The notes under the pieces were generated by a model. That model worked only from the letters and a program-made list of their open reading frames with translations. It searched no databases and was not told where the DNA came from. A program made the position numbers and the translations under genes. 47,065 nt of DNA from positions 1,220,270 through 1,267,334 of the forward strand of contig NZ_KB235958.1 of the NCBI RefSeq assembly GCF_000332355.1. Direction: 5' to 3'. Below are positions 18,202 to 47,065 of the stretch, piece by piece. The DNA comes from Baaleninema simplex PCC 7105 (GTDB lineage: Bacteria; Cyanobacteriota; Cyanobacteriia; Cyanobacteriales; Geitlerinemataceae). Every line of letters starts with the position of its first letter. The first letter of the stretch is position 1.

Positions 18202-18310
18202 CGATGAAGTGCGTAATACGGAATCCGAATCTCAACGCTTCGACTTCGCTCGCTTCGACTCCGCTCGGGCTCAAATACTGGTTTTGACCGACCTGACAAG
18301 TCTCTTTATT

Positions 18311-18389
18311 CCCCCAACCCCCCTTTGAAAGGGGGGCTAAGGGGGGGCTAAGGGGGTAAGGGGGGATGTGGTGAAGACTTCTTGAAACC
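18311..18389. repeat. G/C-run repeat with a 32-bp dispersed unit
   Basis: An inverted repeat CCCCCC-TTTGAAA-GGGGGG (18318-18336) is followed by GCTAAGGGGG tandem units. The last 32 bp (18358-18389, containing GATGTGGTGAAGACTTCTTG) recur perfectly in inverse orientation at 47024-47055 near the window end. No coding sense is seen. Confidence 0.85.
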
Positions 18390-18426
18390 TAGCTTATCGG
18401 AAAAGGATGGAGTATAAGTCCTAACA

Positions 18427-18473
18427 GAAATAGAGCGCTGTTTGTCTTTGCAGCTCAAACAACACTCTATTTC
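18427..18473. repeat. 18-bp-arm hairpin
   Basis: GAAATAGAG plus TGTTTG on the left pairs with CAAACA plus CTCTATTTC on the right around an 11-nt loop. The 3-nt middle contains two C/A mismatches on the plus strand, but these would be G-U pairs in a minus-strand RNA. CATGTTTTTA follows on the plus side. Confidence 0.6.
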
Positions 18474-18504
18474 CATGTTTTTATTGGGGTTTTATTATGA
18501 GTCA

Positions 18505-18593
18505 GGGTCTTTATAGATTCGACCCCGTTAAACATTCAGGATCTTTATTTAATCGATCCCGTTTACGATCGAGGGTCTTTATCGAGCTGACCC
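18505..18593. repeat. Three hairpin units with a 34-bp period
   Basis: Units at 18505-18525, 18539-18559 and 18573-18593 are each 21 bp with 5-bp complementary ends and TTTAT in the loop. The ends are GGGTC/GACCC, GGATC/GATCC and GGGTC/GACCC, so the middle unit changes both arms together. The 13-bp spacers are alike (CGTT.A..AT..A). The 34-bp period breaks the reading frame, so it is not a peptide repeat. Confidence 0.75.
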
Positions 18594-18737
18594 TCTTTGA
18601 ATCTCTCTATAGAATGCCAGATCGTGAAATTGATTTTCGTATTCCTAATAATTTCTTTATATTTCAAAAATTTGCGATTACTGTACTTATGTAAAATTTT
18701 ATAAATCGCTCGACAACTAAACTCGATAACTAAATAA

Positions 18738-19274
18738 TTAACTATCGCTCGATCGGCGATCGGGAGTTAAAGATGCCCCGAGAATCTGCGAGATCCACAC
18801 TTCAAACGATCGCACGGGAGAGCGGCGCACGGCTTCCCCAGCATCCACCATCGGCTCGACGAGGATCGTAAACAATCCCATACGATTTCCCGCGAGAACA
18901 TCTGTAAACAGGCGATCGCCCACCATCCCCACCTGCGCCACCGGCAAATCCATAGCCGAGACAGCCCGCCAGAGCTTACGGCGAAAAGGTTTGGCGGCGA
19001 AGTGAATGTATGGCAATTCCAACGATTTCGCAATTCCGCCGATGCGAGTTTCGCTAGCATTGTTGCTCACGAGCCAAAGCTGAGAGACTTCGCGCAATTC
19101 GGCGATGCGATCGTGTAACGCTTGCGAGGCGCGAGGGCGACCGATCGGAACGAGGGTTTCGTCCACATCGAGGACGAGTCCTTTTAAATCGTGTTTTTCT
19201 AGAAGTTCCGGCGTCAAGTCCAAAACAGATCCACCGAGAACTAAATCTGGCTGTAACAGTTTGCCCCAAGACAT
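18738..19274 (-). CDS. YqeG family HAD-IIIA phosphatase
   Basis: A 178-residue HAD-superfamily protein. It starts LQPDLVLGGSVLDLTPELL as YqeG proteins do. The first HAD motif is GLVLDVDETLVPIG (about residues 32-45) with the nucleophile and acid Asp. The second is LWLVSNNASETR, and the third is MVGDRLFTDVLAGNRMG with the metal-binding Asp residues. All catalytic residues are present. The family is implicated in phosphatidylglycerophosphate dephosphorylation in some lineages (GEP4/YqeG-like) and in ribosome-related roles in others; which applies here is not decided by the sequence. It lies 51 bp downstream of mltG on the same strand. Confidence 0.88.
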   Translation of the reverse strand: MSWGKLLQPDLVLGGSVLDLTPELLEKHDLKGLVLDVDETLVPIGRPRASQALHDRIAELREVSQLWLVSNNASETRIGGIAKSLELPYIHFAAKPFRRKLWRAVSAMDLPVAQVGMVGDRLFTDVLAGNRMGLFTILVEPMVDAGEAVRRSPVRSFEVWISQILGASLTPDRRSSDS

Positions 19275-21000: not shown

Positions 21001-21098
21001 ATCTTCGGTAAATCTCGGGTCGTATCGTCGAAACGCAAACCCGGCAAAAGGGGTCGATCTTGTTCCCTTACGATAACACGGCAAGGGGGCAAGGGAGA

Positions 21099-21194
21099 GG
21101 GGGAGAGGAGAAGAGGGGGAGAGGAGAAGAGGGGGAGAGGAGAAGAGGGGGAGAGGAGAAGAGGGGGAGAGGAGAAGAGGGGGAGAGGAGAAGA
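21099..21194. repeat. Six 16-bp purine-rich tandem repeats
   Basis: Six exact copies of GGGGGAGAGGAGAAGA stand head to tail, followed by partial units to about 21210. The all-purine strand could form triplex or G-quadruplex structures. It lies immediately upstream of the DUF3727 gene, where its promoter would be expected. Similar C/T-rich tracts are at about 370-400, 22363-22397 and 33270-33315. Confidence 0.9.
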
Positions 21195-21230
21195 GGGGGA
21201 GAGGGGGAGAAACTGTTAACTTAACTACCT

Positions 21231-46971: not shown

Positions 46972-47023
46972 CTTTTGGGTCGTTCTGCACTCTCATGATA
47001 CGGAATCTGTTCCCGATCGGCTC

Positions 47024-47055
47024 GGTTTCAAGAAGTCTTCACCACATCCCCCCTT
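47024..47055. repeat. Inverse copy of the 32-bp dispersed repeat
   Basis: The 32 bp here are the exact complement of 18358-18389, about 28.6 kb away. The C-run that follows (to 47063) is cut by the window end. The type is a C-rich dispersed repeat and non-coding. Confidence 0.85.
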
Positions 47056-47065
47056 CGCCCCCTAT

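Follow-up and report, generated by a model that had tools for sequence, protein, structure and literature searches.

Why does the cyanobacterium Baaleninema simplex PCC 7105 carry three short, self-complementary units side by side at one place in its genome? The units lie in a stretch of 47,065 nucleotides (nt) of contig NZ_KB235958.1 (positions 1,220,270 to 1,267,334 of the forward strand), the whole of which is called the window here and whose own numbering is used throughout. They start at 18505 (GGGTCTTTATAGATTCGACCC), 18539 (GGATCTTTATTTAATCGATCC), and 18573 (GGGTCTTTATCGAGCTGACCC), an exact 34-nt period, and span 18505-18525, 18539-18559, and 18573-18593, so that the whole array covers 18505-18593. 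The array is very probably part of a stand-alone small RNA (sRNA) gene that is read on the minus strand from about 18603 to about 18424. As a whole, the best explanation is probably that of an RNA gene acting in trans, the loops of which would meet an RNA-binding protein.

The original prediction, made from the letters of this DNA, had described three 21-base-pair (bp) units with a 34-bp period and 5-bp complementary ends, and the units are indeed there as described. The middle unit is altered on both arms (GGATC/GATCC), as had also been pointed out; because the arrays of the window's family share this double change, it is not a fresh one. The search pattern that had been suggested, run as GGRTCTTTATN{4,8}GAYCC, has three matches in the 6.15-Mb genome, all at the array, and none in a reversed control. 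Read on the minus strand, each unit takes the form GGGTC-loop-ATAAA-GACCC. When the minus strand from 18602 to 18418 is folded, the three hairpins form and are followed by a long terminal one (z = -6.5), and an equal stability was reached in 0 of 200 shuffles.

Is it the pairing that selection maintains? A BLAST search with the region against 99 genomes, the window's own included, matched 10, i.e., nine others and its own, and a covariance model, R1, was built from these first 10 sequences. For a second model, R2, which comprises the promoter and the first hairpin, 62 matches were used, taken from 59 loci to which the R1 results had led. In alignment A2 (62 sequences), standard pairs fill 98.1% of 372 cells, compared to 87.8% after shuffling, counts that lean towards structure in that A2 was gathered with R1, which itself holds the hairpin pairs. 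Both-side changes occur at all six stem pairs and amount to 45 cells, against a shuffle average of 10.1; 0 of 500 shuffles scored as high on any of five measures, and sliding the partner by one column lowers pairing to 58-59%. The changes run from GC to AU, UA to CG, and UA to AU, with G-U forms as well. Pairing is thus kept at every stem position across the 62 sequences, and the stems covary as pairs rather than codons, which bears out the first half of the earlier suggestion, namely selection on pairing, or else on a dyad-shaped protein site, rather than on coding.

Whereas the stem letters change, the loop of the first hairpin is nearly fixed as AGC-nnnn-AUAAA. Among 186 unique elements, the loop starts with AGC in 171 and ends with TAAA in 177, though this set was partly fetched by the exact loop pattern and is therefore enriched for that loop; for this reason, the covariation evidence rests on A2. 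Loop lengths vary from 10 to 15. The features of the proposed gene, with its upstream neighbor, are as follows.

18738-19274, minus strand: yqeG-like HAD phosphatase gene, the upstream neighbor, given as context and outside the RNA (Pfam PGP_phosphatase, expect value [E] 7.8e-11)
18641-18665, minus strand: upstream box GAAATATAAAGAAATTATTAGGAAT, lying at about -38 to -62 relative to the predicted start (near-invariant columns in alignment A1 and in 61 elements)
18611-18619, minus strand: extended -10, TGG CATTCT, with the -10 itself at 18616-18611 (61 aligned elements)
18596-18603, minus strand: predicted start at about 18603 and leader with ATTCAAA (a TTnAAA leader is mostly kept in the 61 elements; the start is placed by its distance from the -10)
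18571-18595, minus strand: hairpin 1, GAGGGUC-AGCUCGAUAAA-GACCCUC (fold; both-side changes at 6/6 pairs over 62 sequences)
18537-18561, minus strand: hairpin 2, with the compensated GGATC/GATCC stem and a loop whose 3' end is AUAAA (complementary ends, fold, family alignment)
18503-18527, minus strand: hairpin 3, with a loop whose 3' end is AUAAA (complementary ends, fold, family alignment)
18424-18476, minus strand: long terminal hairpin, the probable terminator (inverted repeat 18427-18444/18456-18473; fold)

On which strand, and from where, would such an RNA be transcribed? The minus strand is the likely one. The BLAST relatives keep a fixed order on it: an AT-rich box, TGnCATTCT, TTCAAA, a hairpin GGGTCAGC...ATAAAGACCC, in some cases further hairpins, and then a GC-rich hairpin that is often followed by a run of T. 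In the aligned full elements of A2, position 2 of the -10 is A in 61 of 61 and position 6 is T in 61 of 61, while the TG extension has T in 45/61 and G in 51/61; no conserved -35 is seen among the 61. The promoter lies inside the search model and its conservation is partly by construction, though it was first seen in the nine BLAST relatives. On sequence evidence, then, the extended -10 would supply the promoter of its own that stand-alone sRNA genes have. The upstream box is possibly the site of an activator. It looks like an 11-bp direct repeat, roughly TAAAGAAAnnnTTAnGAAA, and direct-repeat layouts of this kind are familiar from response regulators. The box pattern ATAAAGAAANNNTTANGAAA, with at most one mismatch, has one match in the genome, at the RNA gene. 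No regulon sharing the box was found in the eight genomes searched, as the window's genome has that one match and the other seven have 13, compared to 14 in a reversed control, five of the 13 being at the RNA gene itself.

At the other end, a terminator-like hairpin lies downstream in 119 of the 186 elements, compared to 23 in mononucleotide shuffles. Just past the terminal hairpin of the window, from about 18214 to 18424, there is a dispersed G-rich repeat that also occurs at 47010-47064. Its right end (18380-18424) has six other genomic matches at 96-100%, with 76-98% for longer parts. All told, the original prediction was right about the array but missed its extent: the strand, the promoter, the terminal hairpin, and the conservation belong to a larger feature, probably on the minus strand.

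How widespread is the element? Conservation in relatives was one of the things that the original prediction proposed to look for, and there is ample conservation to be found. R1 matches 105 of 386 cyanobacterial genomes (63 of 140 genera) and R2 matches 115 of 386 (67 of 140 genera), the genomes that supplied model sequences matching by construction. By our own count, 95 of the R2 matches are in the window's order and 20 are of the same class only. Within the order, 95 of 105 genomes match, with 10 order members among the 20 misses listed, a denominator which assumes that the misses are listed by kinship, as appears to be so. A laxer search of those 10 gave one weak match (G313, E 0.008), and in a genome of another order it gave a weak match as well (G163, E 0.021). 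Nine of the 10 misses listed outside the order come from one small-genome family (f41), which we take to be the marine picocyanobacteria, and three f41 genomes searched with laxer filters gave no match; among the R2 matches listed, none falls in f41. The window's own family has 14 genomes, 13 of which match. Two genomes of one genus (L193 and L231) have the gene twice in tandem, each copy with its box and promoter, at distances of 346 and 349 bases.

The exact pattern also has matches in seven non-cyanobacterial species (L052, L071, L132, L133, L137, L140, and L149). Four of these match the model at the hairpin end alone and two do not match, while L052, from Moraxella, matches model positions 57-105 (E 1e-4); in our view all seven are chance matches, with L052 the least certain case. 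A contig labeled Gracilibacteria (L075) carries both yqeG and the RNA element and is probably a misbinned cyanobacterial contig. A viral element was considered as well and rejected: the pattern hit six viral contigs, of which L170-L172 match the profile weakly over the hairpin alone and the other three do not.

How many hairpins does the gene need? A strict finder applied to the 186 elements counted one hairpin unit in 109, two in 58, three in 10, and none in nine, and at least one further unit follows the first in 70 of the 186, compared to 0 of the shuffled sequences. Seven of the 10 three-unit elements come from the window's family. Unit spacings fall into groups of 33-40 and 46-67, plus two near 90, and the short ones belong, by eye, to that family. 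Of its 13 elements inspected by eye, nine have three canonical modules, two have two, and two have three hairpins with a middle one that lacks AUAAA. In an alignment of nine family arrays, each of the three hairpins keeps AUAAAGA without change while the stems vary, and the middle-stem core GGGATC/GATCC is found in eight of the nine (7/8 besides the window). Might the unlike stems guard the modules against mispairing? This is only partly borne out. Each 5' arm favors its own partner in the L026 array, but in the window, arms one and three cross-pair almost as well, and in L270 the second arm favors the third partner.

What, then, might the RNA do? Transcription would start near 18603, perhaps aided by an activator at the upstream box, and would stop after the hairpin that ends near 18424; the transcript would then be about 180 nt long here and shorter in many relatives. 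The RNA would act in trans. Each module would present an AUAAA loop on a stem whose letters may change while the pairing is fixed, and extra modules would add protein-binding sites. That the loops bind an RNA-binding protein is the likeliest reading, though a tentative one. Three features favor a protein ligand: the loop is fixed while its stem changes freely, the module is often repeated, and the A-rich unpaired parts would be weak partners in pairing. Strong copies of the hairpin were not found elsewhere in eight genomes, which gave only four weak matches (E 0.15 to 4.2) with a model insensitive enough to list just two of the window's three hairpins. A fixed loop in repeated modules, lacking strong copies elsewhere, seems more in keeping with a protein ligand than with a single messenger RNA (mRNA) partner. 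By analogy, one may tentatively picture an RNA decoy: one to three AUAAA hairpins would titrate an RNA-binding protein in a CsrB-like role, with another motif and another protein, a module number set by lineage, and a dedicated activator.

Several points weigh against the best explanation as a whole, besides the lean of the A2 pair counts mentioned above. (i) With a single module in 109 of the 186 elements, repetition is not essential. (ii) RNAalifold, run on the nine family arrays, recovered all three stems but returned a covariation term of +0.4, which is no support, and added linker pairing around the middle hairpin; the phylum-wide set, not the family set, therefore carries the covariation evidence. 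(iii) The run of T that follows the terminal hairpin in the window is a weak one, and a consensus terminator scan did not call that hairpin. (iv) Any mRNAs that the protein also bound through such a hairpin might be expected to carry strong hairpin copies of their own, and the insensitive model showed only the four weak matches in eight genomes. (v) The RNA gene is predicted from sequence, and its protein partner and target are both putative.

A close rival to the protein ligand is base pairing with mRNAs. A trans-acting sRNA might pair through the unpaired UUCAAA leader, the loop, and the AAnAUAAA that follows the first hairpin, and this too is possible, if tentatively so. Conserved single-stranded patches do flank the first hairpin, and mRNAs are the reported targets of several trans-encoded sRNAs of cyanobacteria, namely Yfr1, PsrR1, and IsaR1 (PMC6202907). 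Yet the conserved patches are A-rich and would be expected to pair weakly, and the conserved loop is repeated and set on a covarying stem, features that speak for the protein ligand.

Could the element instead serve the genes beside it? Among the 59 loci retrieved through model coordinates, 34 have yqeG upstream in the same orientation, which makes the position after yqeG the commonest one for the element, and no other yqeG arrangement occurs; 17 have proB downstream, again on the same strand. These neighbors are what a cis-acting proB leader or attenuator, or a processed 3' end of yqeG, would have in its favor. However, 25 of the 59 loci have no yqeG in the fetched stretch, and 23 have neither gene there. 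In the window, no proB was found, and the downstream gene is convergent and PEP-CTERM-like (E 0.0028, below Pfam's cut-off). The element is for these reasons not tied to one gene in cis, and its promoter is present in elements of both locus types. We consider the cis reading improbable. By eye, the downstream gene encodes a convergent beta-helix/SLH surface-like protein at at least six of 19 loci. A second locus type, beside such a protein, is represented by L208, L211, L202, L214, L184, and L195, and several genomes, e.g., G194, G132, and G436, have both types. Elsewhere in the window, a perfect 16-bp tandem repeat (21096-21204, 6.8 copies) lies within the start of a DUF3727 frame as called.

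Does the region encode a peptide? The plus strand has a frame of 65 amino acids (18497-18694) that runs antisense to the RNA and to which Pfam has no match; the original prediction had argued that it cannot be a repeat peptide, and we agree. Similar antisense frames of 56-129 amino acids are open in five of seven family relatives, all of one genus (the other two have three and 32 amino acids), and, where the DNA of the box and hairpin is conserved, they and the window's frame have short stretches in common. In the model region of A2, some antisense frame is open in 24 of 61 elements, compared to 11 of 61 shuffles. But the window's own frame is open in only 10 of the 61, and 37 have no open antisense frame over the model region, so the plus-strand frame is not taken as coding and is rejected as a gene despite the five open relatives. 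On the sense strand, an ATG does precede the stem in many relatives, where ATGGGGTCAGCC... would read MGSANIKT..., but in many elements ACG stands in place of ATG, which the window lacks at this position, and variation in loop length between 10 and 15 throws the frame out. With a start missing from many elements and the frame shifting with the loop, a short sense peptide is likewise rejected. Given also stems that covary as pairs and not codons, a peptide of either kind is highly unlikely.

Of the three options that the original prediction left standing, the structured RNA is upheld by covariation, G-U pairs, and the terminator-like hairpin. An operator array or iterons bound by a dyad-recognizing protein would suit the even spacing of the window's dyads but is hardly credible, and is rejected, for an element that has one genomic location, no replication initiator among the nine neighboring frames scanned by Pfam (yqeG, yceG, ruvC, and others), spacings of 33 to 67 plus two near 90, one to three modules, and stems whose letters change, G-U pairs included, while the pairing and loop are kept. 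Clustered regularly interspaced short palindromic repeats (CRISPR), which the original prediction had already set aside, are ruled out by the absence of unrelated spacers: the linkers are short and, in the family arrays, related.

Does the RNA belong to a known family? Rfam has no match in the window at the gathering score and, at E up to 1, only one transfer RNA across nine relative loci. A literature search, only part of it directed at this RNA as such, found no description of it; tables of sRNAs by position only lay outside it, and the start site may be on record unnamed. A close likeness is to the Yfr2 family. Its members are described as stand-alone RNAs, widely distributed in cyanobacteria and present several times per genome, in which a 12-nt loop and the unpaired 5' part are conserved; Yfr2a has a length of about 80 nt (PMC2662882). 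The present RNA shares with the family the predicted stand-alone nature, the conserved loop, the conserved unpaired 5' part, and the wide distribution. But Yfr2 has GGA- or ANGGA-like unpaired motifs and a long stem bulged at -4 from the loop, whereas the present RNA has the AGCnnnnAUAAA loop on an unbulged stem of 5-7 bp and a module that is sometimes repeated. Set against the published description, the aligned hairpins show neither the GGA-like unpaired motifs nor the -4 bulge. The Yfr2 authors raised protein titration in 2009 and describe homologues of RsmA/RsmE as not identifiable in cyanobacteria at that time (PMC2662882).

The likeness to CsrB, RsmY, and RsmZ lies in the repetition of short motifs on one RNA and is an analogy only; in CsrB and RsmZ, the GGA motifs are unpaired, whereas the loops here end in AUAAA and show no such GGA. 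Yfr1, an sRNA described as conserved widely among cyanobacteria and strongly in an unpaired stretch (PMC4734099), resembles the present RNA in both respects but differs in its motif. PmgR1 (Ncr0700) and PsrR1 of Synechocystis are likewise intergenic cyanobacterial sRNAs. In strain 6803, Ncr0700 lies before the transposase gene ssr2227, and its overlap to strain 6714 amounts to 195 nt (PMC5386190). When place and size are compared, PsrR1 and PmgR1 differ from the present RNA in one or the other. In two Synechocystis-like genomes, the RNA follows a pseudouridine synthase-yqeG pair and is about 85 nt by eye. By analogy, this pair resembles slr0361-slr0362 of strain 6803, which are named as ribosomal RNA pseudouridine synthase and hydrolase (PMC6508509).

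Overall, present in 115 of 386 cyanobacterial genomes and under selection at each of its stem pairs, the RNA probably has a place in ordinary cyanobacterial physiology, and yet it lies outside Rfam. The gene is short and exists in nature in one-, two-, and three-module forms, which makes it a ready test set. The identity of its partner would tell whether cyanobacteria use protein-sponge RNAs, an idea raised for Yfr2 in 2009 (PMC2662882).
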